Positions 3,195-27,782 of a DNA stretch of 36,544 nucleotides are shown here, one piece after another. The stretch covers positions 1-36,544 of the forward strand of contig JAURNW010000025.1 of NCBI GenBank assembly GCA_030829985.1, written 5' to 3'. The stretch's first letter is position 1. Every line of letters begins with the position of its first letter. The stretch is from Gammaproteobacteria bacterium. GTDB taxonomy: Bacteria; Pseudomonadota; Gammaproteobacteria; Eutrophobiales; Eutrophobiaceae. The notes below the pieces were generated by a model. It did not search any database, was not told where the DNA came from, and saw only the letters and a list, made by a program, of their open reading frames with translations. Both the position numbers and the translations under genes were made by a program.

Positions 3195-3214
3195 TGAGAA
3201 GTAAAATTATTTCC

Positions 3215-3499
3215 TCATGAAATTTGATTATCGGAAGATGTGCTTCTTTTCGTCGGGTAGATAAAAAATACAGCTAACAAGCTGGATGATGCAGTTAATA
3301 ACCAGAACAGGAAAAAACCGATCGAATATGCCCCTGTCCGGCTCATCTCGGGGAAATCAACACAATATTGCAATTCAAACGGATCGATTGCTGAAAAAAA
3401 ACACCCTGTGGCGATACCCGCCATTAAAAAAGACAACCAGAGAACCGTCGCAATTCTCTGCGCGACAGACATCGAACCTATCCGATCCCAGGTCTCCAT
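3215..3499 (-). CDS. Small two-helix membrane protein in the cco operon
   Basis: 94 residues with two predicted membrane helices (about 15-37 and 58-82) and a short charged C-terminus. It lies between ccoP (2 bases upstream) and ccoG (20 bases downstream), so it is certainly co-transcribed. I do not recognise a named domain. Small membrane proteins at this place are seen in other proteobacterial cbb3 clusters, so an assembly or stability role is an inference from position only. The tight spacing and hydrophobic pattern support it as a real gene. Confidence 0.75.
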   Translation of the reverse strand: METWDRIGSMSVAQRIATVLWLSFLMAGIATGCFFSAIDPFELQYCVDFPEMSRTGAYSIGFFLFWLLTASSSLLAVFFIYPTKRSTSSDNQIS

Positions 3500-3501
3500 A
3501 T

Positions 3502-4407: not shown

Positions 4408-4573
4408 GGTTTTTCCCCCTTGAATCTGCGTCTATTAAAGGTTCATCGGTCTCTTCAAATGGAATTTGAGCTGCTTTATCAAACTCTTTCTTATTACCCA
4501 TAAACACCCATACGACTATTCCTAAAAAAACAATCGCCACCAATACCGTCCACATCGAAAATAGTAAACTCAT
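4400..4573 (-). CDS. ccoQ: cbb3-type oxidase small subunit CcoQ
   Basis: A 57-residue frame, ATG at 4573 and TGA at 4402-4400. It has one membrane helix (LLFSMWTVLVAIVFLGIVVW) followed by VFMGNKKEFDKAAQIPFE, the characteristic CcoQ pattern in which a short helix leads into a KKxFDEAA-type stretch and an acidic tail. CcoQ stabilises the interaction of CcoP with the CcoNO core. It lies exactly between ccoO and ccoP and overlaps the ccoP start by 8 bases. Its size makes it easy to miss in automatic annotation. Confidence 0.93.
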   Translation of the reverse strand: MSLLFSMWTVLVAIVFLGIVVWVFMGNKKEFDKAAQIPFEETDEPLIDADSRGKNHG

Positions 4574-4581
4574 TTAATTTC

Positions 4582-5196
4582 TCATCGTCTCGTTTTAACA
4601 GATGTGCCTAATACCTGAAGATAAGCAATCACTGCATCCATTTGAGTCTTACCCTCAAGTGCCGCAGGTGCTTTTTCTATTTCATCATCCGTATAAGGCG
4701 CGCCTAAAGTACGCAGAACTTCCATCTTAGTTTTGATTTTACCCGCATCCAGCATCGTTGTTTCAAACCACGGATACCCCGGCATAATCGATTCTGGTAC
4801 AACATCGCGCGGATTGTTTAAGTGCACTCGATGCCATTCGTCACTATAACGACCGCCGACACGATGTAAGTCTGGTCCGGTACGTTTTGACCCCCATTGA
4901 AAAGGACGGTCATAGACAAATTCACCGGCTAATGAGTAATGCCCATAACGTTCGACCTCTGCGCGGAACGGTCTTATCATCTGTGAATGACATAAATAAC
5001 ATCCTTCGCTGACATATATATCCCGTCCGGAGAGCTGTAACGCTGTATAAGGTTTTAGTCCTTCTACGGGTTCCGTCGTTGACTCCATAAAGAACAAGGG
5101 AATAATTTGAACCAAGCCGCCGATACTAATCATCAAGATGATCAGGAACATCATTAGGCCAATGTTTTTTTCTATTTGTGTGTGCTGTAACGCCAT
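4582..5196 (-). CDS. ccoO: cbb3-type cytochrome c oxidase subunit II (monohaem cytochrome c)
   Basis: 204 residues. One N-terminal membrane anchor (about 13-37) and a periplasmic cytochrome c domain with haem motif CYLCH at 66-70 followed by [18 protein letters not shown], a strongly conserved CcoO stretch. The likely Met ligand is in [11 protein letters not shown]. It passes electrons from CcoP to CcoN. The start has a good ribosome site (AAGGAG) and lies 12 bases after ccoN. The C-terminus ([13 protein letters not shown]) matches the family. Confidence 0.97.
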
Positions 5197-5208
5197 CTTA
5201 TTATCTCC

Positions 5209-6630
5209 TTAATGTGCGCCAACAGGCTCTGGAATTGCTGTCGTTACGGGCGTGCTACCGACAATCGTTTTCCAGATGTTATAGGCCATTACCAACGTAC
5301 CTGAGAGGAATAAAACACCCCCAAGGAAACGTATGATGTAAAACGGATGCATGGCCTCAACTGACTCAATAAAGCTGTATGTCAGAGTGCCATCGTCATT
5401 AACCGCACGCCACATCAAGCCTTGCATGATACCGGCAACCCACATCGCAACAATGTAAAGCACGATACCGATAGTTGAGATCCAGAAATGAACTTCGATT
5501 AATTTAACACTGTATATCGTGCGTCCATAGAGCCGCGGAATCATGTAGTACATACAACCCAGACTAATAAATGCAACCCAGCCCAGTGCGCCGGAATGTA
5601 CATGACCAATCGTCCAATCCGTATAATGCGAGAGGGCATTAACTGTTTTAATTGCCATCATCGGACCTTCGAAGGTAGACATGCCGTAAAACGATAGTGA
5701 AACTATCATCATACGTAATACTGGATCGGTACGTAATTTATGCCAGGCACCGGATAAGGTCATCATGCCGTTGATCATGCCACCCCAGGATGGCGCTAAA
5801 AGGATGATAGACATCACCATGCCTAAGGACTGTGCCCAATCCGGTAAGGCGGTGTAATGTAAATGATGTGGCCCTGCCCAGATATAGGTGAAGGTCAACG
5901 CCCAGAAATGGACTATTGAAAGCCGATAAGAATAAACCGGACGACCTGCTAATTTTGGAACAAAGTAGTACATCATGCCGAGAAAGCCGGCAGTCAGAAA
6001 AAAGCCTACCGCATTATGTCCGTACCACCATTGCACCATGGCATCCTGGACACCGGCATAGATTGAATAGGAGTGGAGATAGCTGGTTGGTATAGCCAGA
6101 TTATTAAATATATGCAATACGGCAATCGTCAGGATGAACGCTGCGAAAAACCAGTTAGCTACATAGATATGCTTTACTTTTCTTTTCATCACCGTGCCGA
6201 AAAACACAAAGGCATATGCCACCCAAACGACTGTAATCAAAAGATCGATAGGCCATACGAGCTCTGCATATTCTTTGCCTTGGGTGATGCCAAGCGGGAA
6301 GGTTATTGCAGCGCAGACTATTATTGCTTGCCAACCCCAAAAGGTAAATGCGGCAAGCTTGTCGCTAAATAGACGCGCATGACACGTGTGCTGCACAATA
6401 TAGTATGAAGACGCAAAGAGTGCAGAGCCACCAAAAGCAAATATCACGGCATTCGTATGTAAGGGTCGTAAGCGCCCAAACGTCAACCAGGGAATATCTA
6501 AATTCAAAGCTGGCCAAGCCAATTGTGCTGCAATGATTACGCCTACTAGCATGCCGACGACACCCCAAACTATCGTCATAATTGCAAACTGACGCACTAC
6601 CTTATAATTATAAGTCCCATTATCGGTCAT
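5209..6630 (-). CDS. ccoN: cbb3-type cytochrome c oxidase catalytic subunit I
   Basis: 473 residues with about 12 membrane helices. Visible haem and copper ligands include RPLHTNAV (low-spin haem), [12 protein letters not shown] (CuB His and its nearby Tyr), AGPHHLHYT (CuB His pair) and [11 protein letters not shown] (haem ligands). This is the O2-reducing, proton-pumping subunit of the high-affinity terminal oxidase. The longer frame begins at a TTG at 6645, but the ATG at 6630 has GGGAG 7-8 bases upstream and is preferred. Its first 11 bases overlap the OmpW-like remnant upstream, so it may be translationally coupled to it. Transcription probably starts at the FNR-dependent promoter near 7283. 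Confidence 0.97.
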
Positions 6631-6856
6631 AAAGACAGCTCCCAATTTCCATTGTGTCTGATTTGTTTTTTATTATAGTAACTCTAGTCGTTTGGTTTAA
6701 CCTGACACTAGTACTACTATCATCAGGTGCAATTGCAATACCTCTTAATCGTACTTTCCACTTATCATGGTCAGTTGCGAAACCCTGACTTGATGCACTT
6801 AACAAGATTGTCATCAGTAATAATGTTTTTATTTTACTGTTTGCTATGAATGCCAT
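6620..6856 (-). pseudogene. OmpW-like N-terminal remnant overlapping the start of ccoN
   Basis: A 78-residue frame with a clear signal peptide (about 1-28, LLLMTILLSASSQGFA) and then DHDKWKVRLRGIAIAPDDSS, which resembles the first beta-strand region of OmpW-family outer-membrane proteins. After about 50 residues the similarity ends and the rest ([20 protein letters not shown]) looks unrelated; intact OmpW is about 200 residues. The remaining barrel is not visible in another frame. The ribosome site is good (AAGGA, 8-9 bases before ATG), so the piece is probably translated and terminates inside ccoN. It may be a decayed gene kept as a leader, or a small periplasmic peptide; the OmpW link is made from memory of the family and is moderate. 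Confidence 0.5.
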
Positions 6857-6897
6857 TATTTATATCCTTAAAATTTATAGATTAATATACGAAATCG

Positions 6898-7245
6898 TTA
6901 ATTTGGCTGCGCGATGAGCGTATGATTCGGGCAAAAGACCAATTCATGATTAGAAACAATCGGCTTACTCAGGACACGATCACATTCAGAGGTTTGAGTA
7001 CAAGCATTACAATTTCTAATCTGTGTTTCAATTTCTCTAATTGGGGTTTTGCTAACTAATTCCTGCGGGTCAACATTGTGCTTTGTCAACATTTGACCAA
7101 ATCGTAGAGACTCAATTTTTTCCATGATCTGCACACGAATTGATTGTCCAGTCAGGAAATTTTTTCTTATTGATATAAACAGTAATACTGCAGTCACCAA
7201 CATTGATATTCCCAGTGCCAGCAGCAATAAAATAGATAGATTCAT
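6898..7245 (-). CDS. DUF6455-type membrane-anchored Cys protein, first gene of the cco operon
   Basis: 115 residues. One N-terminal membrane helix (about 4-26) precedes a small domain with LRFGQMLTKHNVDPQELV, then IETQIRNCNACTQTSECDRVL and ELVFCPN. The CxxC-x5-C and downstream C arrangement with the FG.ML...DP motif matches what I know as DUF6455. Function is unknown; the four Cys suggest metal binding or redox. It is the gene nearest the FNR box (leader about 38 bases, AAGAG ribosome site), and a gap of 41 bases separates it from the OmpW-like remnant, so it probably heads the cco transcript. Confidence 0.75.
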   Translation of the reverse strand: MNLSILLLLALGISMLVTAVLLFISIRKNFLTGQSIRVQIMEKIESLRFGQMLTKHNVDPQELVSKTPIREIETQIRNCNACTQTSECDRVLSKPIVSNHELVFCPNHTLIAQPN

Positions 7246-7289
7246 AAACGGTGCTCTTAATTATTTGTCTTAATTATTGTTTTTTGCCT

Positions 7290-7295
7290 ATTATC
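7290..7295 (-). promoter_or_regulatory. -10 box of the cco operon promoter
   Basis: GATAAT on the minus strand at 7295-7290. The start predicted about 7 bases downstream (near 7283) places the FNR box centre (7323.5) at about -41, the class II position for FNR activation. This supports FNR-activated transcription of the DUF6455-cco genes. Confidence 0.6.
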
Positions 7296-7316
7296 ATTAA
7301 CTTTAAATGGCGTTAA

Positions 7317-7330
7317 TTGATCTAGATCAA
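7317..7330. promoter_or_regulatory. FNR/ANR box, exact TTGAT-N4-ATCAA, between cco operon and ccoI
   Basis: TTGATCTAGATCAA is a perfect match to the FNR consensus. It lies in the divergent intergenic region between the DUF6455-cco operon and ccoI-ccoS. Spacing is right for class II activation of the minus-strand operon. On the plus strand only a weak -10 (TAATTC, 7351-7356) is at the corresponding distance, so control of ccoI is likely but less certain. Confidence 0.88.
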
Positions 7331-7382
7331 CAAATGATGCATTGCAATATTAATTCGGTATTCAATTTAGATTTTGGCTAGA

Positions 7383-9821
7383 ATGCCCGGCATGCAAACT
7401 GATTGTTTCCATTGTGGGGAACCGATTCCGGCCGACCTCGAATTGACTGTTGACATAGACGAACAAGCGCAAGCTATGTGTTGCTATGGTTGTAAGGCCG
7501 TTGCTGAACAGATTATTGATTTTGGATTGATCGATTATTATCGACATCGAACCAGCCTTCCACAAAGGCCAGAGTCATTCGTTCCTGCCGATTTAAAGAA
7601 ACTCAACATATTCAATAATCCCCAGGTACAAAGCGAGTTTGTTAGCCTCAATGATGATTCGTCAAAAGAGGCTAAATTAATCATTGAAGGTATCAGTTGC
7701 CCCGCATGCGTTTGGTTAATCGAATCCCGGCTCTCATCTTTAAAAGGCATTAAAGACGTTAATGTTAATTATTCCACTCAGCGCTGCCGAATAAACTGGC
7801 ATGAGACAGAAATTTCTTTGGGAGAAATTCTTAGTGCCATCTCTCGACTCGGTTATAACGCCCTGCCCTACAATCATAAGCAACGTGAGTTGAATTTTGA
7901 TAATGAGCGTAAGGGACAATTACTCAGAATAGGCATTGCCGCTTTATTTGGCATGCAGGTGATGATGATCGCTATTACGCTCTACTTTGGCGACGTGACT
8001 GGCATTGAAGAACAATATCGTGTTTTCTTTCATTGGATCAGCTTATTGTTAACGCTACCTGTACTATTTTATTCAGGACAACCTCTACTCATAGGTGCCT
8101 ATCGCGATTTAAAAAACAAACGCCTCGGCATGGATGTGCCTATTGCGATTGGTCTTTCAATCGCATTTGTCAGTAGTGTATGGGCAACACTGCAACAAAC
8201 CGGACATGTCTACTATGACTCTATTGTCATGTTTACTTTCTTTATTCTGGGTGGTCGCTATTTTGAATTTATGAGCCGAAGAAAATCGACAGCTCATCTG
8301 GACAAGTTAACCTCAATACTACCGTTATATGCAACGCAGATTAAAATCGATAACACTCATGAAACGGTTGATTTAAATACCTTAACTGTTTCAGACAAGG
8401 TATTAGTCAAACCCGGTGAAGTTATTCCTGTTGATGGTGTCGTAGTTGAAGGTCATTCATCTGTTAATGAATCTCTAATTACCGGCGAAAGCATTCCTAT
8501 CAGTAAATCTATCGGTATGCGTGTTATTGGTGGTAGTACCAACATAGAATCGCCATTGATTATCAATATTACTGATATAGGCGAACACACCGTCCTTTCT
8601 CACATAGCGCGTATAATTGATAGAGCAAGCAGTAATAAACCTGATTCGGTCAAATTAGCAAACAAAATAGTGTCCATCTTTGTCACAGGGATAATCATTA
8701 TTGCCTGTCTGGTCGCGTTCTATTGGTATCATGTAGATCAAAATCAATGGCTGGCTATCACCATTACTGTGCTGGTAGTCAGTTGCCCCTGCGCCTTATC
8801 GTTAGCAACACCTACTGCTTTTTCTTCTGCGGCAGCTACGTTTATAAAGTATGGCATTGCCTTGATTAATAATGACTCCATAGAAAAGATAGCAAAATCC
8901 AGCTATTTCGTGTTTGACAAGACCGGCACACTTACAAAAGGCGAACTGGAACTGATCGAAATTGATATCATCGATAATAATTACAGTAGAGATGATGTCT
9001 TAAAAATTGCATCAGCTCTTGAGTCTGCTTCGGAACACCCATTGGCAAAAGCTATAGTCCACGCCTCAGGGAGTATTGATAAGATTCATGCTGATGATAT
9101 AAAAAATTATCCTGGTCAGGGGATCAGCGGCAACATAAATGGTTTATGGTTCATTGGAACAGAACGGTTTATAAGTGAAAATAGCCGGGGAGCTTTTGCT
9201 CCTCAATCTGACCCTGCTAAATCATTAAAACAAATAGTAATAGCCACTAGCGAGTCCGTTGTAGCTACATTTTCATTTAATGACGAATTGCGTAATAGCA
9301 GTAAATCTTTGATAAAGTATTTGAAGGATCAAGGCAAGAAAGTGATATTGATGAGTGGCGACCAGCCCTCTGTAGTCAATCAAGTAGCTGAAGAACTTGA
9401 AATAATTGATTGCCGCGCAGGCTTGAAACCCGAAGATAAATTAAACCATATTGCCAAGCTTCAACAACAAGGCTATCAAGTCTGCATGATCGGTGATGGT
9501 ATTAATGATGCTCCGGCCTTTGCGCAAGCTGATGTAGCGATAGCTATGACAAATGCCAGTGATATAACCAAACTCAATGCAGACATATTGCTATTGAATA
9601 ATAAAATAGAGTCACTTGGAACAATGCTAAAGATTGTGGCAAAAACAAATCGCACAATACATATGAACTTCATCTGGGCTCTGGCGTATAACATCACTGT
9701 TTTGCCATTTGCGATAGCCGGTTTTATAACACCGTGGATGGCAGCAATAGGCATGTCACTAAGCTCATTGATTGTTGTTGTTAATGCTACCAGAATAACG
9801 ACTACAGACTATTCGAAATAA
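7383..9821 (+). CDS. ccoI: P1B-type copper ATPase for cbb3 oxidase assembly (CcoI/FixI)
   Basis: About 812 residues. An N-terminal Cys domain (CFHCGEPIP, then MCCYGCKAVAEQI) precedes an HMA domain with GISCPACVW near residue 106-114 (numbering from the TTG at 7374). Further on are TGES in the actuator domain, the metal-site motif SCPCALSLATP near 470, the phosphorylation site DKTGTLTKGE near 515 and [12 protein letters not shown] near 706. This N-terminal layout is that of CcoI, which exports Cu(I) to the periplasm for insertion into CcoN. The frame opens with TTG at 7374; ATG at 7383 or 7392 are the realistic starts and cannot be separated here. It is followed 8 bases later by ccoS and shares the FNR-box region with the cco operon. 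Confidence 0.95.
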   Translation: MPGMQTDCFHCGEPIPADLELTVDIDEQAQAMCCYGCKAVAEQIIDFGLIDYYRHRTSLPQRPESFVPADLKKLNIFNNPQVQSEFVSLNDDSSKEAKLIIEGISCPACVWLIESRLSSLKGIKDVNVNYSTQRCRINWHETEISLGEILSAISRLGYNALPYNHKQRELNFDNERKGQLLRIGIAALFGMQVMMIAITLYFGDVTGIEEQYRVFFHWISLLLTLPVLFYSGQPLLIGAYRDLKNKRLGMDVPIAIGLSIAFVSSVWATLQQTGHVYYDSIVMFTFFILGGRYFEFMSRRKSTAHLDKLTSILPLYATQIKIDNTHETVDLNTLTVSDKVLVKPGEVIPVDGVVVEGHSSVNESLITGESIPISKSIGMRVIGGSTNIESPLIINITDIGEHTVLSHIARIIDRASSNKPDSVKLANKIVSIFVTGIIIIACLVAFYWYHVDQNQWLAITITVLVVSCPCALSLATPTAFSSAAATFIKYGIALINNDSIEKIAKSSYFVFDKTGTLTKGELELIEIDIIDNNYSRDDVLKIASALESASEHPLAKAIVHASGSIDKIHADDIKNYPGQGISGNINGLWFIGTERFISENSRGAFAPQSDPAKSLKQIVIATSESVVATFSFNDELRNSSKSLIKYLKDQGKKVILMSGDQPSVVNQVAEELEIIDCRAGLKPEDKLNHIAKLQQQGYQVCMIGDGINDAPAFAQADVAIAMTNASDITKLNADILLLNNKIESLGTMLKIVAKTNRTIHMNFIWALAYNITVLPFAIAGFITPWMAAIGMSLSSLIVVVNATRITTTDYSK

Positions 9822-9829
9822 AAAACGAT

Positions 9830-10027
9830 ATGGAAATAATATATTTATTAATCCTGATCACTCTGGTTTTTGTGGCGCTATTAGCCGGGATATTATTTTG
9901 GGCAATACGCTCAGGGCAGTTTGATGACCTGGAAAGGCATGGACAAGAAATATTAATGGATGATGATAATATTAAAGATGAAAATACATCATCATCGAAA
10001 CAAAAATCTGACAAAAAAAAGATATAA
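9830..10027 (+). CDS. ccoS: cbb3 oxidase maturation protein CcoS
   Basis: 65 residues: one membrane helix (about 3-27) ending in FWAIRSGQFDDLERHGQEIL, the diagnostic CcoS motif, followed by an acidic and then lysine-rich tail. CcoS is required for cofactor insertion into cbb3 oxidase. It is 8 bases downstream of ccoI, as in many proteobacteria. Confidence 0.95.
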   Translation: MEIIYLLILITLVFVALLAGILFWAIRSGQFDDLERHGQEILMDDDNIKDENTSSSKQKSDKKKI

Positions 10028-10103
10028 ATCAACGACAAATATCGTCACATCCTATCCCTTCAGCATTTACATCTAATAAATCGTTTTACTGTTTCAATTA
10101 GTC

Positions 10104-10117
10104 TTGATCCAGATCAA
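10104..10117 (+). promoter_or_regulatory. FNR/ANR box upstream of hemN
   Basis: TTGATCCAGATCAA is an exact consensus box. Its centre at 10110.5 predicts a start near 10152 for a class II promoter, giving a leader of about 24 bases to the TTG start at 10176. Anaerobic activation of hemN by FNR/ANR is known in other gammaproteobacteria. Confidence 0.88.
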
Positions 10118-10175
10118 GATTCCAAAGGCATTAATAAACTAGCCTTACGCATATTCGTTGTATTGGGCAAGGACA

Positions 10176-11567
10176 TTGAAACAAACTATTATTTTCAATA
10201 AAGAATTAATCAAACGGTACAATCTTTACGGCCCCAGATATACCTCTTACCCGCCTGCAAATAGATTCGATGAGCAGTTTGGCATTAAGGATTATTGTCA
10301 GGTCGTAACGGATTCGAATGAGTACTTATTACCGAAACCATTATCGCTTTATATACACCTGCCATTTTGTAATACAGTTTGTTTTTATTGTGCTTGCAAC
10401 AAGGTCGTAACTGCAAATCGAAATCGTGCTCGGCCTTATCTGGATGATCTACATAAAGAAATTAATCTACAAGGCCCAATGTTTGATAAAGACCGGCCTG
10501 TAAATCAGTTGCACTGGGGCGGTGGCACACCAACATTCATATCCCATGAGCAAATCACCAGCTTAATGAATGTCATAAAATCGAACTTCACTCTGCTGGA
10601 TGATGATTCGGGTGATTACTCCATAGAAATCGATCCCAGAGAAATAAAAGAAGAAACAATATCGCTATTAAGAAATATCGGCTTTAACAGGATCAGTATC
10701 GGCGTCCAGGATTTCAACCCTAATGTACAAAAGGCTGTCAATCGCGAACAGACCTATGAGAAAACGCTTAATGTTTTCAATGAAGCCAGGAAACACGGGT
10801 TTCACTCAATCAATGTGGACCTGATTTATGGTCTACCAAAACAATCAGCAAGAACCTTTTGCAATACAATCAGCAAGATTGTTGAAATGAATCCTGATCG
10901 AATTGCGATATATAACTATGCTCATCTGCCCGATTTATTCAAAACACAACGTCAAATAAATGAAGATGAATTACCAGGTCCAAATGAAAAACTGGAAATA
11001 TTGGGCGAATCAATTGAGTCACTGAAAGACGCCGGTTATATCTATATAGGTATGGACCATTTTGCCAAGCCTGATGATGAACTAGCCATTGCTCAGCGTA
11101 AGGGGAATTTACACCGGAATTTCCAGGGTTACTCCACCAACGCGAATTGTGATGTTATTGGCTTTGGGGTGACTGCAATCAGCAAAATAGGCAACTCATA
11201 TTCACAAAACATTCGTACTCTTGAAGGCTATCACAAGGCATTAGAAAAAAATAACATCCCCGTTATGCGTGGTTACAAATTAACAGATGACGATGAATTG
11301 CGCAGAGAAGTGATTACACAATTAATATGTCACTTTCAGATCGATTTCCATGAAATTGAAGACTTATTCAAAATTGATTTCAAAGAATACTTTTCCAAAG
11401 AGCTACAAATATTGAAGGACATGGAAAAGGATGAATTGGTCAAAGTTAATGACAACAATATCGAAGTATTACCGACTGGTAGATTCCTCATCAGAAACAT
11501 TTGTTCCGCTTTCGACGTATTTTTAAACCGGGACGATAACGTTCGCAACTTTTCTAAAATGATCTAA
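10176..11567 (+). CDS. hemN: Oxygen-independent coproporphyrinogen III oxidase
   Basis: About 463 residues. The radical SAM cluster motif is CNTVCFYCAC near residues 65-74, preceded by SLYIHLPF; YGPRYTSYPPA near the N-terminus and WGGGTPTF, INVDLIYGLP and IAIYNYAHLP are HemN-type conserved stretches. The enzyme decarboxylates coproporphyrinogen III to protoporphyrinogen IX without oxygen, supplying haem for cytochromes under anoxia. The start is uncertain: no ATG is available. TTG at 10176, with AAGG a few bases upstream, fits the predicted transcript start better than the TTG at 10158. The FNR box upstream fits its role. Confidence 0.93.
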   Translation: MKQTIIFNKELIKRYNLYGPRYTSYPPANRFDEQFGIKDYCQVVTDSNEYLLPKPLSLYIHLPFCNTVCFYCACNKVVTANRNRARPYLDDLHKEINLQGPMFDKDRPVNQLHWGGGTPTFISHEQITSLMNVIKSNFTLLDDDSGDYSIEIDPREIKEETISLLRNIGFNRISIGVQDFNPNVQKAVNREQTYEKTLNVFNEARKHGFHSINVDLIYGLPKQSARTFCNTISKIVEMNPDRIAIYNYAHLPDLFKTQRQINEDELPGPNEKLEILGESIESLKDAGYIYIGMDHFAKPDDELAIAQRKGNLHRNFQGYSTNANCDVIGFGVTAISKIGNSYSQNIRTLEGYHKALEKNNIPVMRGYKLTDDDELRREVITQLICHFQIDFHEIEDLFKIDFKEYFSKELQILKDMEKDELVKVNDNNIEVLPTGRFLIRNICSAFDVFLNRDDNVRNFSKMI

Positions 11568-17851: not shown

Positions 17852-17911
17852 ATGGTACGTTTATGGCACATTACGTTTAATTTTGTCTAGTAATGGTACG
17901 TTTATGGCACA
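17852..17911. repeat. 19-bp direct repeat, two copies
   Basis: ATGGTACGTTTATGGCACA occurs at 17852-17870 and exactly again at 17893-17911 (period 41 bp), just upstream of tRNA-Arg and next to the long palindrome. No gene is present. It may be a remnant of a mobile element or a binding-site pair; nothing in the sequence decides. Confidence 0.85.
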
Positions 17912-17923
17912 CGACTTTCACTC

Positions 17924-17988
17924 TGTACCCCGTCAGCCCCATGTGGACCAATTAGCCTAATTGGTCCACATGGGGCTGACGGGGTACA
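17924..17988. repeat. Perfect 32-bp inverted repeat with a 1-base centre
   Basis: Left arm 17924-17955 (TGTACCCCGTCAGCCCCATG...) and right arm 17957-17988 are exact reverse complements around one C at 17956. The arms are GC-rich (about 55 percent) against an AT-rich surround and contain CCCCGTCAGCCCC. It would form a very stable hairpin in RNA or cruciform in DNA. No T-tract follows on either side, so a simple terminator is unlikely. It resembles REPIN/REP-type or MITE-like elements; this is inference. Confidence 0.95.
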
Positions 17989-17999
17989 AGATAATCATT

Positions 18000-18073
18000 C
18001 TTTACTGAAAAATCAGGCGTTAATACATCTATATAAATGAATTAATCTGGACTGTCTATGTTGCTTAATATAT
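18000..18073. other. Non-coding remainder between palindrome and copper ATPase gene
   Basis: AT-rich sequence with no ORF, hairpin or promoter that I can support. With the repeats and the tRNA upstream flank it makes a 274-base gene-free stretch from 17800 to 18073. Confidence 0.6.
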
Positions 18074-20353
18074 TTATAAGGCAATCTTTCTCAATCGTAA
18101 GGCATTGCTTATAACCGATACAGAACTAAAACTCATCGCCGCCGCTGCTATCATTGGCGATAGTAACAATCCAAAAACGGGGTAAAGCACTCCCGCTGCA
18201 ATTGGAATGCCAAGCGCGTTGTAGAAAAAGGCAAAAAACAGATTCTGGCGAATATTGCGCATGGTCGCTCGACTCAGTAAACGTGCTCTGGCTATACCAC
18301 GGAGATCGCCTTTAACCAACGTGACCCCTGCACTCTCCATCGCGACATCGGTTCCGGTTCCCATCGCGATACCGACATGTGCCTGTGCTAATGCTGGTGC
18401 ATCATTGATACCATCACCGGCCATCGCTACCTTACGTCCTTCTGCCTGAAGTCGTTTAACAACTTCGACCTTTTGTTCCGGCAACACTTCTGCGATAACC
18501 CAATCGATATTTAATTTTGCGGCTACAGCTTCCGCTGTTGTCTTGCTATCACCGGTGAGCATAACAATTTGAACATTGTCTTTATGTAATGCGGCAATGG
18601 CTTCAGCGGTTGATGCCTTGATTGGATCAGCGACACCCAATATCCCGGCAAGCTTTTTATCAATAACGACAAACATTGCTGTCTGTCCTTCTCTTCGTAA
18701 TTCTTCTGCCTGTTTAATTAAAGGACTCACATCAATATCAAAATCCTCCAATAATTTCAGATTACCTATCGCTATTTGTTTATTATCAATAAATCCTTTG
18801 ACGCCTTTACCAGTGATAGAATCAAATTCGCTGGTTACGCCAAGTGAAATAACCTTTTCTTCAGCACCAGCGACGATTGCCGCCGCTAATGGATGCTCAC
18901 TGTTTTTTTCCAGACTCGCACCTAGTCGCAAAACCTCCTCTTCATTAAAATCCGTTGCCGTAATAACACTCACAAGCTTAGGCTTACCTTCTGTCAGTGT
19001 ACCCGTCTTATCAACCACTAAGGTATCGATCTGTTCCAGAACCTCCAGAGATTCGGCATTCTTTATCAACACCCCAAGTGAGGCACCTCGTCCAGTTCCC
19101 ACCATGATAGAAATAGGTGTTGCCAGACCTAGTGCACAAGGACAAGCAATGATTAAAACGGCTACGGCATTAATGACAGCATGAGAAAGTCTGGGTTCCG
19201 GACCCAACAAGCCCCAAATAATTAGAGTGATAACTGCACAGATAAGCACGGTGGGTACAAAGTACGCCGAGACAGTATCAACCGTTTTTTGTATTGGCGC
19301 GCGACTTCGCTGTGCCTCAGCAACCATATGTACGATCTGTGCCAGTAGAGTATCACCGCCTACACGTTGCGATTCCATAACAAGACTGCCAGTAGTATTC
19401 ACTGTTGCGCCGATAACAGGATCACCAACATGTTTAGTCACTGACAACGGTTCTCCTGTCACCATTGATTCATCAACGGCGCTGCTTCCTTCGATAATTT
19501 TTCCATCGACAGGAATTTTTTCGCCGGGCCTGATCCGCAGATGATGTCCTATTTGAACATTATCCAACTGGATATCTTCTTCACTGCCATCCTCCTTTAT
19601 CAGACGCGCTGTTTTCGGTGCTAGCCCTAGCAACATCTTGATCGCAGTATTGGTCTGACTCCGCGCACGAAGTTCCAGTACCTGTCCTAACAAGACCAAC
19701 ACAGTGATGACTGCGGCAGCTTCAAAATAGACTGGAATCAGACCTGCTTTAGTTTGTACTGATTCTGGGAACCAGCCGGGGAACAGGGTGGCAACAAGAC
19801 TGTATGTCCAGGCAACACCCACACCTAAACTGATTAACGTAAACATATTAAGGTGTCGTGAAATAAGTGATGACCAGCCTCTCAGGAAGAATGGTTTTGC
19901 ACCCCATAGCACAACAGGCGTTGCTAGACTAAGCTCAAACCATTGTCGCGTCTTTGGATCAATCACTTGTGAAAAGAACTCAGGCCAGAAGTCTGCAGCC
20001 ATGGCGCTGATAAAGACGGGTACTGCTAATACCAGACTAATCCAAAATCGTCGTGTCATATCAATCAATTCGTGATTGTCTTCTTCGCCTTTCATCGCTA
20101 CGGCTTCAAGAGCCATTCCACATTTTGGGCAATCGCCCGGCTCATCACGAATGATTTCGGGATGCATGGGACAAGTGTATTGTGATTTAGACGACGGGAT
20201 TGGCGGTGACGATAGTTCTAATGCCATTCCACATTTTGGACAATCATCGGGGTGATCTTGCTGAATATCAGGATGCATGGGGCAGATGTATTTACCTGAA
20301 CTATCCAGTTTATCGACTGCTTTTGTTTGATGGCTATGGCAACACTCGTTCAC
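18074..20353 (-). CDS. copA: P1B-type copper-exporting ATPase with two heavy-metal-binding Cys domains
   Basis: 759 residues from a GTG start. Instead of HMA domains the N-terminus has two copies of a short metal-binding motif ([10 protein letters not shown]...CPKCGMAL at 21-46 and CPMHPEI...[10 protein letters not shown] at 60-84). The ATPase core shows TGEP in the actuator domain, metal-site CPC in [13 protein letters not shown] near 404, the phosphorylation motif [11 protein letters not shown] near 447, HP in SEHPLAAAI and [12 protein letters not shown] near 645. It exports Cu(I), and the CPC/YN/MxxS layout fits CopA rather than a zinc exporter. A consensus FNR box 60 bases upstream predicts oxygen-dependent control. 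It lies downstream of the multicopper oxidase in the same orientation. Confidence 0.93.
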
Positions 20354-20385
20354 AAATTTTACTACACCTAAAATAGACTATTGAG

Positions 20386-20391
20386 AGTATA
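20386..20391 (-). promoter_or_regulatory. -10 box of the copper ATPase promoter
   Basis: TATACT on the minus strand at 20391-20386. The start expected near 20379 puts the FNR box centre (20419.5) at about -41, as in class II FNR promoters, with a leader of about 25 bases. Confidence 0.65.
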
Positions 20392-20412
20392 TATCGTACG
20401 TATTAAATAAAA

Positions 20413-20426
20413 TTGATTCTGATCAA
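20413..20426 (-). promoter_or_regulatory. FNR/ANR box upstream of the copper ATPase gene
   Basis: TTGATTCTGATCAA, an exact consensus box, in the 82-base gap between the multicopper oxidase stop and the copper ATPase start. The position relative to the -10 box fits activation. Copper toxicity is greater under anoxia because Cu(I) dominates, which makes this control sensible. Confidence 0.85.
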
Positions 20427-20435
20427 TACCTGAAT

Positions 20436-22484
20436 TTAAAAGTAAAATTCCAGGCCCGCACCAATATCAAAATCCGAATCATGATTTATGACCCCGGTCA
20501 TTTTTGTATTGAACTGATACTTTAGTCGAAATCGATGCTCGTTATCCGTATTCCAGTTCCAATCAAAATTAATGTGTTTAGTTAACTGGTAATCGCTTTG
20601 TAATTGAAACCGAAATTGTCCATTTGAATCATAGCGTAAGTCAGATTCGACCAGAAAGGGCAATGTGTAATTAATTCCGACAATAACCCTATTGTTAATA
20701 TCATCAACATCACGTTCAAGATTGACCCCGCCATAGAGACCTAGAAAACGTGTTATACGACGTTCATAAAATGCTTCAATATCATATTCATTTTTATAAT
20801 CGAAGTCGTAATGCAGATTAATCGTATTCCGTGTATCCATGCTCCACAGTTCACCCGCCATCATATTTGATTGAAATGACATATCAGCAAAGCTATACCA
20901 TGGATCGCCATTTGCTCTCAGGTTTTTATAAAACTCGGCATTTAAATCACTAGTAGGCTTGCTGTCTTCATAACGCACTACTCGCGCCATACCATTTTTC
21001 ATATGATAGAGGTTATGACAATGGAAAAACCAGTCTTTCTCTTCATTTGCAAAGAACTCGATAACCACTGTTTGGAAAGGAGGGACATTTACAGTATGTT
21101 TTAGTGGAGAATGATCGCCTTGCCCATTTAGAACCCGGAAAAAATGGCCATGTAGATGTACTGGGTGATGCATCATAGTTTCATTTTTCAAGATAAAACG
21201 AACATTCTCTCTTTTCTTGATTAATATCTTGTCATTTTCAGATAGCGTCTCATTATTAAACGACCAGACATAACGTTTCATACTCCCGGTGAGTCTTAAT
21301 AATATTTCGCGTTCAGTATTGTCCTGATTGAGTGAAGTATCATTTGGAGAACGCAATGCATCGTATTCATCTAGCACATTAATTCTGGAATGATGCTCAC
21401 GCTGCATAGACATTTTTTCATGATTTGGATGTTCTTCAACGCCCATCGACATTTGATGCATGGAGTGGTCCATTAGAAAAGGATTTGGTTTTGGCACATC
21501 CTTTGTTTCGACAGTTTCACCCTCTCCTACAAACAAAGAGGCATAGCCCGTTACATCCTCCGATGTTGCTCTAAACTCATAAGCCTTATCATCTTTCGGA
21601 ATGGTTATTATAACGTCATACGTTTCGGCTATGGCAATTCGCAAACGCCCAACACTGGTTGGGACAACGGGTTGACCATCTGCTTCAATAATAAGCATAT
21701 CGCCACCCGCATAGTCGACATAAAAATAACTTGAGGCGCCAGCATTGATAATGCGTAACCGCACTTTACTCCCGGGCGTTAAACCTTCCAGCCTTGATTG
21801 TTCTTTACCATTGATAAGAAATGCGTCATAACCAACATCAGAGATATCCATGGCATCCATTCTAATTAGAGAATTTTTAAATCGAGCCTTTAATGCGGGC
21901 CAGCCATTTTCAAAAATCTTGTCCCAGGACTGCACAGCATTTTTCTTCAAGGCATAATAATTATCTTTACGTTTAAGGTTCTGCAATACCTGTTTCGGGT
22001 TTTCATTGGTCCAGTCTGATAATACGATAACTTTCTCAACATCATATTCGTAAGGCTGTTCATCATCATGAAACACCATTGACCCATAAATACCGCGCTG
22101 TTCCTGTAGGCCTGTGTGCGAGTGATACCAGTATGTGCCTGCATGCGTTACCGGAAACTCATAGGTAAATGAACTGCCCGCCTTGATCGGCGATGTAGTT
22201 AAATATGGCACACCATCCTGATCATTTGGCAACAACACACCATGCCAATGTATAGATGTTTCATTCTGCATTAAATTATTGAATGTGATTTTTAGAGTGT
22301 CCCCTACCTTTGCTTCAATTGTTGGCGCGGGGATTTTATCATCGATCGACATTGCCATGGCAGGCTGCCCGACTATATTTACTTCTTTGTAATCTATATC
22401 AAAAGTATAAATCACAACTTCCGCTTTGCAGATCGTTGTGAAAATCATCAAACATAATATGCATGATTTTTTAAAAAACAGCAT
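20436..22484 (-). CDS. Multicopper oxidase fused to a CopB-like outer-membrane barrel domain
   Basis: 682 residues with a Sec signal peptide (about 1-21). Residues about 22-515 are a CopA-type multicopper oxidase: copper motifs SIHWHG, GTYWYHSHTGLQEQRG, HHPVHLHGHFF and FFHCHNLYHMKNGM. A Met/His-rich loop lies near 338-366 (MDHSMHQMSMG...HEKMSMQREHH). After the oxidase core, about 150 residues with alternating beta-strands (EAFYERRITRFLGLYGG, RFQLQSDYQLTKHINFDW) end in GAGLEFYF, with a terminal aromatic residue as in outer-membrane barrels; this matches the C-terminal half of CopB. Normal CopA oxidases stop after HCH...YHM. The enzyme would oxidise Cu(I) in the periplasm, possibly tethered to the outer membrane. 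Ribosome site GGAG precedes the ATG. Confidence 0.88.
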   Translation of the reverse strand: MLFFKKSCILCLMIFTTICKAEVVIYTFDIDYKEVNIVGQPAMAMSIDDKIPAPTIEAKVGDTLKITFNNLMQNETSIHWHGVLLPNDQDGVPYLTTSPIKAGSSFTYEFPVTHAGTYWYHSHTGLQEQRGIYGSMVFHDDEQPYEYDVEKVIVLSDWTNENPKQVLQNLKRKDNYYALKKNAVQSWDKIFENGWPALKARFKNSLIRMDAMDISDVGYDAFLINGKEQSRLEGLTPGSKVRLRIINAGASSYFYVDYAGGDMLIIEADGQPVVPTSVGRLRIAIAETYDVIITIPKDDKAYEFRATSEDVTGYASLFVGEGETVETKDVPKPNPFLMDHSMHQMSMGVEEHPNHEKMSMQREHHSRINVLDEYDALRSPNDTSLNQDNTEREILLRLTGSMKRYVWSFNNETLSENDKILIKKRENVRFILKNETMMHHPVHLHGHFFRVLNGQGDHSPLKHTVNVPPFQTVVIEFFANEEKDWFFHCHNLYHMKNGMARVVRYEDSKPTSDLNAEFYKNLRANGDPWYSFADMSFQSNMMAGELWSMDTRNTINLHYDFDYKNEYDIEAFYERRITRFLGLYGGVNLERDVDDINNRVIVGINYTLPFLVESDLRYDSNGQFRFQLQSDYQLTKHINFDWNWNTDNEHRFRLKYQFNTKMTGVINHDSDFDIGAGLEFYF

Positions 22485-22555
22485 GGTATCTCCTGCGCGT
22501 TTGACCAGACATTTACCATGTCCAGTAAAAATAAAAACTTATTACAGCAACAGAA

Positions 22556-22888
22556 TTAGAACTTTGGAGGATGAAAGATGGTGCTTTGTGGAATATTTGG
22601 ATAAGGATTTATCGTAATGTTCACCAAATCATTACTTGCGAGGAATTGTAATTTTATGGTTTCACTGAAAACTGAATTGAGGGTGTTACAGCCAAAATAA
22701 TCACAGTGAAAGCAACCGGTGTTGGAATCTTCGTGGTCAGCAACATTGTTATCGTGACATAAAACCTGTTCAGTGTTCGAACCTGAATGATTTGCCAGAC
22801 CATTCTTGCAATCCATCGCAGACAATATTGACGAATACATCATCAATGTCATCAACACATAAACGAGGTTTTTCTTGTACATAATCAT
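22556..22888 (-). CDS. Small exported Cys/His protein upstream of the multicopper oxidase
   Basis: 110 residues with a signal peptide (about 1-24, LVYVLMTLMMYSSILSA). The mature part has DCKNGLANHS, LCHDNN, and GCFHCDYFGC, then ends in IPQSTIFHPPKF. The layout (signal peptide, scattered His/Cys, CxxC-like cluster, Pro-rich end) resembles small proteins encoded beside copper or cobalt-zinc-cadmium resistance genes, but I do not recognise the exact family. It precedes the oxidase by 71 bases in the same direction and is likely co-transcribed. A periplasmic copper-binding role is inferred. Confidence 0.65.
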   Translation of the reverse strand: MIMYKKNLVYVLMTLMMYSSILSAMDCKNGLANHSGSNTEQVLCHDNNVADHEDSNTGCFHCDYFGCNTLNSVFSETIKLQFLASNDLVNITINPYPNIPQSTIFHPPKF

Positions 22889-23246
22889 GTCTTTGAATAT
22901 AGCATAATATTAGTGTCTGAGCCCTGCCAGAGGCACTGTAGTCCTTTCCATTAACAGACTCTTCTAGCCTGAATAAGGTTCAAATGCATGAAGTTTTAAT
23001 GTAGACGCATCTATTGATTTACTCAGATAGCAAATTATTGGGTGTTTTTCGATAATTTCTGTCTTAAAAACCTGAAATAGCTGATTATTCTGGCAAAACC
23101 CGTTAGTTTCTCCTATAGTGCACCAAGCTACAGATAGTGTTATTGGCAGTTTTGGTTTTTTCCATCCGTGATACTCTCCATGATTTACCCGTTTCATTAC
23201 CTGTACAACACACTATTTGTTTAATTTATTGCAGGTGCAAAGAGAC
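22889..23246. other. Intergenic region and cspA leader, no convincing gene
   Basis: 358 bases separate the divergent small copper-associated gene and the cold-shock gene. A 77-residue minus-strand frame (22964-23197) has no recognisable domain and a poorly spaced ribosome site, so I do not call it. The segment must contain the promoter and probably a structured leader of the cold-shock gene, but no clear -35/-10 pair stands out. Confidence 0.5.
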
Positions 23247-23447
23247 ATGGCTACAGGAACAGTAAAATGGTTTAACGAATCTAAAGGTTTTGGTTTTATC
23301 ACTCAGGATGACGGCGGCGCAGATGTATTCGTACATTTCAATGCTATTCAAGGCACCGGATTCAAAACCCTTAATGAAGGTCAAAAGGTAACTTATGATG
23401 TCGAGGACAGCCCTAAGGGCCTCCAGGCAACTAACGTTTCCGCTTAA
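23247..23447 (+). CDS. Cold-shock protein (CspA family)
   Basis: 66 residues, a single cold-shock domain. [20 protein letters not shown] contains RNP1 (KGFGFI) and VFVHF is RNP2; the end GLQATNVSA is standard. It binds single-stranded RNA/DNA and acts as an RNA chaperone. The frame is open upstream to 23217, but ATG at 23247 gives the family N-terminus [10 protein letters not shown] strong terminator follows. Confidence 0.97.
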
Positions 23448-24662: not shown

Positions 24663-25268
24663 ATGAAAAATCCATATTACAAACTATTAAAAATAGCTGT
24701 ATTTTTTTACTTTACTTCATATATAAATATTGCAGTCGGCTTAACTGCAGATGAGACCGTCTACGAGACCACACAGGAAATTATAGACCGGCTCCAGAAA
24801 GAAAAAGATCGGCTTAAGGCTGAACCAGAATATATACAGGAAATTGTACGTGAATTAATAGTTCCACACCTGGACTTTAGTACAATGTCTGCCCTGACCA
24901 TGGGTAAAAATTGGGACATATTGAATGGCAATATACGAGAGTGTGTCAGTCATGGTTTTAAAAACCTTTTAGTAGAACGATACGCATATGTCCTTCTCAG
25001 TTACCGCAAACAGGACATTAATTATCAATCTGCCATACCGATTGGTGAAGAAGATTACGTCTCTATAAGACAGACTTTATCTCGCCCTGAAGTAAAGCCT
25101 TCAACCATCGAATATCGCATGCGGCCTGATGGTGATCTCTGGAAAGTAGTTGACCTTGTCATCGACGATGTAAGCTTAATTAGAAATTACAGAAAAATGT
25201 TTAATAAAGACATCAAGCATCAGGGGCTGACAGACTTTATTTATAGTTTTGATGAGTGTAAAAACTAG
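24663..25268 (+). CDS. MlaC/Ttg2D (HpnM-like) periplasmic lipid-binding protein
   Basis: 201 residues with a signal-type N-terminus (about 10-27). IVRELIVPHLDFSTMSALTMGKNW, FKNLLVERYAYVLLSY and LWKVVDLVIDDVSLIRNYRKMF are hallmarks of the MlaC/Ttg2 family, soluble periplasmic proteins that carry phospholipids or hopanoids between membranes. No Mla ABC genes are nearby; instead an RND/MMPL exporter follows 45 bases later, the arrangement of HpnM-HpnN. The gene starts under a consensus FNR box. Confidence 0.9.
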   Translation: MKNPYYKLLKIAVFFYFTSYINIAVGLTADETVYETTQEIIDRLQKEKDRLKAEPEYIQEIVRELIVPHLDFSTMSALTMGKNWDILNGNIRECVSHGFKNLLVERYAYVLLSYRKQDINYQSAIPIGEEDYVSIRQTLSRPEVKPSTIEYRMRPDGDLWKVVDLVIDDVSLIRNYRKMFNKDIKHQGLTDFIYSFDECKN

Positions 25269-25313
25269 AATATTATAATTTCGGGGAATTATTAAAATTC
25301 AGTTCATCTGCTT

Positions 25314-27782
25314 GTGAAACTCTCATCACTGTATAATTCTCTGGTACTAAAAAACCCCGTTTCGATACTGGTTATAACCTTTTGCATCGTTTGCTTTTCA
25401 ATATTTTATTCCTTTAACTTTGAACTTGATGCTTCAGGTGAGTCACTCGTTCTGGAAAACGACAATAGTCTGAATTATTACCGGAAAATCAGTCAGAAAT
25501 ATGCTTCTGATGACTTTATTGTTATTACTTTCAAACCTTCTTCAGAACTCCTATCCAAAAAGTCTATAACAGCTATTCGCTCACTCAGGGATGCTCTATT
25601 AAAAATAGACAGTATTGAATCTGTTAATTCTATTCTTGACGTGCCCATTATCTATGAGTCCGGATTAAAACTATCCGAAATTAATAGTCACTTACCTACA
25701 TTTGGATCAGGAAAAATAGATAAAGATACTGCATATAAGGAATTCAAAACAAACCCACTATACCGCGAATTGCTCGTTAGCAAAGATGGCACAACAACCG
25801 CTTTACAAGCTTTGTTCAAGAGAAACATTGAATATGATGATTTGTTAAATCGTCGACTGGAATTGCAAACATCGGAACAGATATTGACTAAAGACGAACA
25901 GGCTGAGCTTGAAAAAATAAAGCTGGAAATTAAAAACAAGAATAGATTGCTATCGATACAACGACAAGAAGATATAAAAAACATACGGGAAATTATCGAC
26001 CAACAGCGCACTTATGGACAACTGTATATGGGAGGAATCCCGATGATCACGGTTGACATGATTCGGTTCATTAAGCATGACCTTCTGGTATTTGGTAGTG
26101 GTGTGTTTTTATTCCTGATTTTAATCCTGTCCCTGTTTTTTAAAAAAATTCGATGGGTTTTGTTACCCATGTTAATCTGTGCTATCACAGGATTAGTAAC
26201 GATTGGATTAATGGGATTTAATGGCTGGTTTGTAACAGTTATCTCATCTAATTTCTTATCCATCCTTTTAATTATTACCCTTTCATTAACGATTCATCTC
26301 ATTGTTCGCTATCGCGATTTGCAACTGATAAAGCCTGAGTCTGACCATGTTGAGTTAATTCGATTGACTACAATATCTATGTTTCGTCCTTGTTTTTACA
26401 CTATATTGACTACAGCCGTAGCATTCGCTTCTCTGGTCGTGAGTGAGATTAGGCCGGTAATTGATTTTGGGTGGATCATGGTACTGGGGCTGTGTATCTC
26501 ATTCATTGTCAGCTTTACTGTCATGCCAGCATGTTTAACGTTGTTTGGACATATAGATAAACCTACTGATATTGATATCACTAAAAAAATTACATTGAAC
26601 CTGGCTAAAGCTGTACACCGCAGTCCGCTACTAATAATCATCACTTCAGTATTACTCGTGTTTCTAATTGGTTTTGGTATTACGAAACTTGAAGTCGAAA
26701 ACAGGTTTATCAATAACTTTAAATCAGATACTGAGATATATCAGGGCATGAAAATAATCGATAATCAGTTAGGTGGGACTATGCCACTTGATATTATCAT
26801 CGATCCCGATAAGGACTTCATAGAAGTCAGAGATGAGCTGGCAACAGAAACGAATGCACTGGATGACTTATTTTTTGATGATCATGATGATTTATCTGAG
26901 CCAAGTTATTGGTTAAACCCAATCATGTTAAAGAAAGCCAAAAAAGTACATGAGCATCTGGAATCGTATTCTGTAATTGGTAAAGTAATTTCAATTGTCA
27001 CTTCATTAAATATTGTTGAAAAATTAAACGGCGCGCCTTTTGAAGAATTCGAGTTAGCATTATTACGAAAACGAATTCCTGATGTGATAGCTGATGATCT
27101 TGTCAAACCATATATGTCTTATGATTCCAATCAATTACGGTTTAGTGTTCGCGTCATTGAATCTGACCCAACATTAAACCGTAAGGAACTATTAAACAGT
27201 ATCCATCAATTCCTGACGAGTGAATTAGGCCTGGAAGATTACCAGGTACATTTAACCGGGATGATGGTTCTTTATAACAACATGTTACAAAGCCTTTTTC
27301 GTTCGCAGATACTAACTATTGGCGCTGTTTTTACCGCCATATTCTTAATGTTTATACTTTTATTTAGAAAAATTAATCTGGCATTAATTGCTATTGCGCC
27401 AAATCTGTTTTCAGCAGTTTTGATTCTCGGAATTATGGGCTGGGCAGGTGTGCCACTGGATATGATGACAATAACGATCGCTGCCATAACAATTGGTATT
27501 TCGGTTGATGACACGATTCATTATGTACATCGTTTACAACATGAATATCCAGTAGATCGGGATTATAATGAGGCGATTAATCGTTGCCATGGCAGTATTG
27601 GCAAAGCAATGTACTATACTTCCATAGCCATTATATTTGGTTTTGCATTACTTTCCTTATCTAATTTTATCCCGACTATTTACTTCGGACTTTTAACAGG
27701 ATTTGCTATGTTTGTTGCATTAATAGGAGACTTACTGTTACTGCCCGCCATAGTATTGATTGTAAAGCCCAGGATCATCTGA
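25314..27782 (+). CDS. RND/MMPL-family exporter (HpnN-like)
   Basis: 822 residues from a GTG start. One membrane helix at the N-terminus (about 16-33), a large periplasmic loop including a charged coiled-coil segment (about 180-235), then a block of five or six membrane helices (about 255-430), repeated as a second loop and a second helix block (about 660-815). GISVDDTIHYVHRLQHEY in the second half and the first-half counterpart SLTIHLIVRYRDL match the RND/MMPL superfamily. Such proteins paired with MlaC-like partners move lipids such as hopanoids towards the outer membrane. The substrate is unknown; no hopanoid synthesis gene is present here. Confidence 0.9.
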   Translation: MKLSSLYNSLVLKNPVSILVITFCIVCFSIFYSFNFELDASGESLVLENDNSLNYYRKISQKYASDDFIVITFKPSSELLSKKSITAIRSLRDALLKIDSIESVNSILDVPIIYESGLKLSEINSHLPTFGSGKIDKDTAYKEFKTNPLYRELLVSKDGTTTALQALFKRNIEYDDLLNRRLELQTSEQILTKDEQAELEKIKLEIKNKNRLLSIQRQEDIKNIREIIDQQRTYGQLYMGGIPMITVDMIRFIKHDLLVFGSGVFLFLILILSLFFKKIRWVLLPMLICAITGLVTIGLMGFNGWFVTVISSNFLSILLIITLSLTIHLIVRYRDLQLIKPESDHVELIRLTTISMFRPCFYTILTTAVAFASLVVSEIRPVIDFGWIMVLGLCISFIVSFTVMPACLTLFGHIDKPTDIDITKKITLNLAKAVHRSPLLIIITSVLLVFLIGFGITKLEVENRFINNFKSDTEIYQGMKIIDNQLGGTMPLDIIIDPDKDFIEVRDELATETNALDDLFFDDHDDLSEPSYWLNPIMLKKAKKVHEHLESYSVIGKVISIVTSLNIVEKLNGAPFEEFELALLRKRIPDVIADDLVKPYMSYDSNQLRFSVRVIESDPTLNRKELLNSIHQFLTSELGLEDYQVHLTGMMVLYNNMLQSLFRSQILTIGAVFTAIFLMFILLFRKINLALIAIAPNLFSAVLILGIMGWAGVPLDMMTITIAAITIGISVDDTIHYVHRLQHEYPVDRDYNEAINRCHGSIGKAMYYTSIAIIFGFALLSLSNFIPTIYFGLLTGFAMFVALIGDLLLLPAIVLIVKPRII

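Follow-up and report, generated by a model that had tools for sequence, protein, structure and literature searches.

Copper resistance operons of the PcoA/PcoB (CopA/CopB) kind encode a multicopper oxidase and an outer-membrane barrel as two genes. The PcoB crystal structure has 12 strands, and the same report argues that PcoB works in copper uptake (PMC9210255). In Caulobacter, the N-terminal domain of PcoB stabilises PcoA and PcoB itself is important for resistance in the split system, and a possible docking of the two proteins, with transfer of Cu(II) to PcoB for efflux, has been proposed (PMC12509749). Multicopper oxidases and CopB co-occur in beta-proteobacteria (PMC6769254), and PMC4827864 gives CopB family sizes as 424 +/- 265 and names no fusion in the part available. 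The joined architecture is itself already in print, in about one sentence each: a fused PcoA-PcoB was mentioned in one clause for five Legionella species in 2012 (PMC3548706), and the Bizionia argentinensis oxidase G2EDV6 was described in 2024 with three plastocyanin-like domains and a porin-like region, 611-809, of some PcoB similarity (PMC11213822). Here we analysed a 36,544-nucleotide stretch from a Gammaproteobacteria bacterium (contig JAURNW010000025.1; the whole stretch is called the window), in which a minus-strand gene at 20436..22484 is predicted, from its open reading frame and a full-length model, to encode a 682-amino-acid multicopper oxidase fused to an outer-membrane beta-barrel. 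An earlier note on this DNA had presented such a fusion as a departure from the standard operons; the fusion is real, and had been in print since 2012 (Legionella) and, in effect, since 2024 (Bizionia).

The frame starts with an ATG at 22484 and ends with a stop at 20438-20436 on the minus strand, to which all parts of the gene given below belong, and its final residue is Phe. The full-length AlphaFold2 model reached a pLDDT of 89.6 and a pTM of 0.88. We consider it probable that this one frame specifies a naturally fused CopA-CopB (PcoA-PcoB) unit, covalently joined, that detoxifies copper in the envelope. Judged by its sequence, the part up to about residue 507 is a CopA/PcoA-type multicopper oxidase, complete but too divergent for the curated family. 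Pfam assigned residues 22-507 (20964..22421) to three copper oxidase domains, Cu-oxidase_3 (PF07732) at 30-142, Cu-oxidase (PF00394) at 151-308 and Cu-oxidase_2 (PF07731) at 392-507, and the best NCBIfam model was TIGR01480 (copper_res_A). The four copper motifs of a CopA-type enzyme, which the earlier note had placed before about residue 500, are HWHG (residues 79-82, 22239..22250), HSHT (121-124, 22113..22124), HPVHLHGH (440-447, 21144..21167) and HCHNLYHMKNGM, which begins HCHNLYHM (488-499, 20988..21023). In a second alignment of the fusions (42 rows), His79, His81, His121, His123, His440, His443, His445, His488, Cys489, His490, His494 and Met499 were invariant, and we take these residues to be the copper ligands, as in the oxidase family. 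A Met/His-rich loop at residues 341-366 (21387..21464), disordered in the model (pLDDT <50), is a candidate copper-binding loop. In a Foldseek search with the full-length model, 50/50 of the matches listed were multicopper oxidases.

The oxidase is followed by a linker at residues 508-529 (20898..20963) with a predicted helix at 512-525; its length, about 22 residues, compares with a median of 23 across 46 short fusions (defined below). The remaining residues, 530-682 (20439..20897), are supported by modelling and sequence comparison as a 12-strand outer-membrane barrel that ends in Phe and is distantly homologous to CopB/PcoB, with the strand number of PcoB. AlphaFold2 run on the tail alone gave 12 strands with a mean pLDDT of 92.7, and the 12 strands were seen again in the full-length model. 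A single chain provides all 12 strands, as it does in the PcoB crystal, and the predicted barrel can therefore probably close without oligomerising. The tail superposed on closed 12-strand barrels over tail residues 25-177, and Foldseek against the PDB ranked the PcoB crystal 7PGE first (E 2.8e-6). We nevertheless rejected a CopB identity based on fold alone, as OmpLA and other 12-strand barrels scored equally in the VIA alignment, and named the barrel a CopB homologue on profile-profile comparison with controls. The tails of fusions with less than 72% identity were aligned (44 rows including the window), of which 42 end in Phe, Tyr or Trp, one of the remaining two being cut by a contig end. 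In the comparison, hhalign matched the tail profile to CopB with a probability of 95% and an E value of 3.6e-8, whereas six control comparisons spanned 0.1-0.8%, including reversed CopB (0.3%), the reversed tail (0.2%) and OmpLA (0.8%). No homology of the tail to the OmpLA-like phospholipases (PF02253) was thus detected by hhalign, though the folds are close; the OmpLA profile was built from 11 whole open frames with their ends included, and loci L176 and L179 were omitted. The CopB-like strand pattern ending in Phe, which the earlier note had read by eye, is therefore borne out by the profile comparison and the confident 12-strand model. The match to the CopB profile PF05275 was divided: the window tail stays below its cut-off, as detailed below, and 19/44 orthologous tails matched Pfam CopB at E<=1 (best 3.5e-7), the next Pfam family reaching 11/44. 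The window protein accordingly shares with the PcoA/PcoB operons the two parts, their order, the copper motifs and the predicted 12-strand barrel.

The continuity of the frame was examined in a scan of genome contigs, in which 92 relatives were found and the best 80 kept; the scan used six peptide patterns, five of them in the oxidase, and tail-less relatives were thus findable, though the query was a fusion. Oxidase and tail were in one frame in 78/80 loci, of which three (L092, L098 and L101) lack the oxidase start. One exception is cut by a contig end (L088), and the other, from Shewanella surugensis (L102, 5965-8093), is broken into three frames and is probably a pseudogene. In the stretches of up to 6 kb on each side of the 80 loci, the CopB profile gave no match outside the fusion frames at E<=0.001. 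By record titles and NCBI ranks, the loci come from Pseudomonadota, Bacteroidota, Acidobacteriota, Nitrospirota, Myxococcota, Bdellovibrionota, Thermodesulfobacteriota, Balneolota, Dadabacteria and others; many of them are metagenome bins whose labels are possibly wrong, and named isolates include Dyadobacter, Pedobacter, Flavihumibacter and Daejeonella. Nearly full-length matches also occur on plasmids, namely those of Ilyobacter polytropus DSM 2926, Hymenobacter and Spirosoma. How widespread the fusion is, which had been left unsaid, can thus be answered with many phyla. The suspicion that an assembly join, or the loss of a stop codon between separate copA and copB, produced the continuous frame, as an artefact or as an accident of one lineage, draws on one relative (G021) with an in-frame stop in the linker. 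Against it stand the same architecture in 78/80 loci and the grouping of the short-fusion oxidases in one clade with 100/100 support; this cross-phylum conservation refutes the suspicion, and we rejected it as having next to no chance of being right. The stop of G021 is a TAA at 2596-2598 of locus L212, in a genome of about three contigs, and may mark a naturally split gene, a decaying one or a sequencing error.

The own genome of the window contains a single match to the fusion protein and no match to PF05275 at E<=0.001, and the tail is therefore the only recognised CopB there. When this genome and 57 relatives were searched, a full-length match was present in six of the 58, the window's and G021 included, and in these six PF05275 at E<=0.001 was either confined to the fusion frame (G024, G038) or absent. 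We also compared fused with split genes in a draw of 143 genomes from the class, which was even over lineages, so that its counts are not natural abundances. TIGR01480 matched at E<=1e-60 in 42 genomes and CopB at E<=0.01 in 41, the two surveys being taken as the same 143 genomes from their equal size and handles. Oxidase and CopB lay in separate frames in 32 of the 42, and six carried both in one frame of 784-926 amino acids (G040, G059, G066, G077, G101, which has further CopB pieces elsewhere, and G109). Two more were short fusions (G000, G038), and the last two had the oxidase without a CopB match (G037, at a contig end, and G145, a match with internal stops). A profile of the tail, searched against 274 genomes, matched in 29. 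Clear short-type matches were few, namely G000, G038, G252 and G196 in long frames and G170, whose short frames contain no oxidase part; the remaining matches were weaker, most of them hitting frames of CopB size and some of them long fusions. In G170, the short-barrel homologues lie outside oxidase frames, one of 220 amino acids with a signal-like start (L189, 3405-4064, minus strand) and one 126-amino-acid piece (L190, 3567-3944, minus strand), and the stretches analysed around them gave no oxidase match.

The fusions are divided, by sequence, into a long and a short type, the short type being a separate clade with a smaller and more divergent barrel. A tree of 81 oxidase domains, from which L191 (at a contig end) was omitted and the variable Met-rich stretch cut from the columns, had three sides: split CopA (27), long fusions (7) and short fusions (46, plus the G021 row with its stop). 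The window oxidase sits in the short clade, outside the long-fusion clade. The long fusions have frames of 784-926 amino acids that match PF05275 far over its cut-off, and the barrel region has a median of 152 residues in short against 187 in long fusions, as delimited by two different profiles. In a second tree of 48 rows (20 short, 7 long, 13 split and, as outgroup, 8 other multicopper oxidases), the short and long fusions formed one clade with 97/89 support, and each type was supported at 100/100. The alternatives to the joint clade were not rejected (AU p 0.14 and 0.08), and a single ancestral fusion event is thus favoured rather than proven. The Legionella fusions, likewise one polypeptide with PcoA and PcoB parts (PMC3548706), may be of the long type found here; if so, they differ from the window's short type, with its separate clade and smaller barrel. 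The Bizionia oxidase, as far as its description allows comparison, has the same architecture as the window protein, but was described as a putative periplasmic enzyme (PMC11213822). In a separate line, we considered whether the oxidase replaces a Met/His-rich N-terminal domain of CopB. This idea was dropped, as many split CopB N-termini are short and not Met/His-rich: over 26 frames, each extended back to the preceding stop, the median was 5 Met and His in the stretch of at most 90 residues ahead of the barrel. Two consecutive fusion genes, at 4808-7651 and 8242-10899, were observed in one Bacteroidetes bin (L110).

The window protein begins with a signal peptide at residues 1-21 (22422..22484), helical at 2-18 in the model, which is Sec-type by eye and lacks the twin-arginine motif (RRx followed by two hydrophobic residues) of the twin-arginine translocation (Tat) pathway. 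In this it differs from the split systems: the motif precedes the oxidase in 27/27 split CopA rows, but in 0/7 long and 0/46 short fusions, the window included. The split rows come from gammaproteobacterial genomes only, picked from those with a CopB match, and the rows were read differently, as split and long rows run back to the previous stop and short rows were trimmed to a Met near the domain, which left L055 and L068 empty before the domain and a few others with little. We therefore recounted 71 distinct fused frames untrimmed (4 frames being omitted as cut or too short), and found that 2 matched the pattern, in each case ahead of the likely start Met, a rate close to that of the background (13/651 windows). 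The Tat pathway carries folded proteins, while outer-membrane barrels travel unfolded through Sec to the barrel assembly machinery (BAM). A fusion should therefore have to use Sec, and an oxidase exported in this way would have to fold and acquire its copper in the periplasm. The missing motif fits a copper oxidase anchored in the outer membrane and exported unfolded by Sec and BAM, and, if the contrast holds, it means that this oxidase lineage must gain its copper outside the cytoplasm. Neither this Tat/Sec contrast, the cross-phylum breadth nor the long/short division was found in print in the open-licence literature.

These data suggest the following route. The chain would leave the cytoplasm unfolded via Sec, and BAM would insert the barrel into the outer membrane, while the oxidase would fold and acquire its copper in the periplasm, where the chain topology would keep it close to the inner face of the outer membrane. 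There it would oxidise the Cu(I) supplied by the inner-membrane Cu+ ATPase of the adjacent gene, and pass Cu(II) at close range into the pore of its own barrel, so that the fusion would take the place of a separate CopA, exported by Tat, that docks onto CopB. A natural fusion fits the PcoA-PcoB docking idea (PMC12509749). Its covalent link sets the ratio of oxidase to barrel at 1:1 as well as their spacing, and makes the docking idea testable on one purified chain. A bolder reading, which we put forward tentatively and short of an even chance, is an old self-contained device that oxidises and expels copper, in which the fusion forced the switch from Tat to Sec/BAM, the tethered oxidase feeds Cu(II) into its own pore, and a single ancestral fusion spread across phyla, partly on plasmids. 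If true, it would offer a natural one-chain model of CopA-CopB cooperation.

Several observations weigh against our best explanation, the probable covalent unit and the route suggested for it. The TIGR01480 score of the oxidase, 401.4 bits, is under the curated cut-off of 478.95. The Foldseek superposition of the tail on PcoB 7PGE is loose (rmsd 5.3, TM 0.60), and the VIA scores of OmpLA (Z 15.4) and PcoB (Z 14.6) are tied. Pfam CopB met the window tail alone at E 0.033 and 14.2 bits, under the cut-off of 27, and when PDB sequences were searched with the tail profile by hmmsearch, PcoB was absent at E<=10, the sole match being a designed 12-strand barrel (E 0.005). The twin-arginine contrast is one between clades and may reflect a single historical event rather than a forced rule. 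A neighbouring Cu+ ATPase (blastp >200 bits to the window ATPase) was found within 2.5 kb in just 5/58 other loci with 2.5 kb on both sides, and a conserved operon with the ATPase was rejected on this count. Published studies disagree on which way copper moves through PcoB, one arguing for uptake (PMC9210255) and another for efflux (PMC12509749). Since the whole model rests on sequence and structure prediction, from which we infer localisation, copper loading and conduction, we hold it with good rather than high confidence. Finally, the pore carboxylates of PcoB (D97-E207, E130-E223 and E187) were mapped to the tail via the CopB alignment and hhalign; acidic residues of the tail lie within 2 positions of E187 and E207, in a register that is uncertain because the tail hairpins are shorter, and are partly conserved, with Glu in 20/44 and Asp in 9/44 at position 613, and Asp in 18/44 and Glu in 16/44 at position 631.

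Whether the barrel conducts copper or merely anchors the oxidase is the main point on the barrel between the two readings. A barrel that serves only to tether the oxidase in the outer membrane and no longer conducts copper would share all other steps above, and the smaller short-type barrel with its short strands, the position of the window tail under the CopB cut-off and the partly conserved pore residues are in keeping with it. Charged in-strand positions, however, are kept across phyla (acidic at 568 in 39/44 and at 631 in 34/44, Arg575 in 38/44), more than a pure anchor seems to need, and PcoB is important for resistance in split systems (PMC12509749). We regard a mere anchor as somewhat unlikely, with odds that overlap those of the conducting barrel.

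Turning to the gene neighbourhood of the fusion, the probable partner is a Cu+-type P1B ATPase at 18074..20353, minus strand, with two HMBD metal-binding motifs (PF00122, PF00702 and two stretches of PF19335; TIGR01511 over its cut-off), which begins 82 bp downstream of the fusion on the same strand. On a Flavobacterium plasmid (L224), a heavy-metal ATPase adjoins the fusion. On pILYOP02 of Ilyobacter polytropus (L222), the fusion is accompanied, among others, by genes for periplasmic heavy metal sensors, a cation transporter and a cupredoxin, and on the Hymenobacter plasmid (L223) by genes for a four-helix copper-binding and a heavy-metal-associated protein. These neighbourhoods bear on a different use of the fusion, as a porin-oxidase conduit that oxidises Fe(II) (or Mn) at the cell surface. 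PcoAB has indeed been proposed as a porin-multicopper oxidase system in iron oxidisers (PMC5566968), and Cyc2, cited there, has the same outline of an N-terminal redox domain joined to a C-terminal barrel, although its redox domain is a cytochrome instead of a multicopper oxidase. The Met/His-rich loop of the oxidase and the adjacent Cu+ ATPase, together with the metal-related genes on the two plasmids, speak for copper detoxification instead, and we consider iron oxidation improbable. Most plasmid copies carry the annotation 'multicopper oxidase domain-containing protein'; with a score under the CopB cut-off, the barrel is easily overlooked in annotation.

A possible partner, encoded at 22556..22888, minus strand, 71 bp upstream of the fusion on the same strand, is a small protein rich in Cys and His that is probably secreted. 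It had no Pfam match at E<=10, and its lone NCBIfam match was far under the cut-off. Similar small open reading frames lie upstream of the fusions in L212 (4220-4648, minus strand; G021), L032, L040 and L085, and these proteins of about 100-117 amino acids have a hydrophobic N-terminus, clustered Cys and His, and a PPK, PPR or PPI end. A crude pattern scan found such a frame in 5/72 loci, of which two (L076 and L088) have no hydrophobic start as read, in addition to the window and G021 by eye. They are possibly a family of copper-binding helpers. Promoter-like sites in 17900-23300 numbered 15, against 14.9 in shuffles, and were thus not in excess.

Elsewhere in the window, the region 1294-11567 encodes FixH, FixG, a second P-type ATPase with PF12156, which we take to be CcoI-like, and a HemN-like radical SAM protein, and resembles an ordinary assembly region for cbb3 oxidase. 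At 24663-27782 on the plus strand, an MlaC-family protein is followed by an MMPL-family transporter, by family an ordinary lipid-transport pair.

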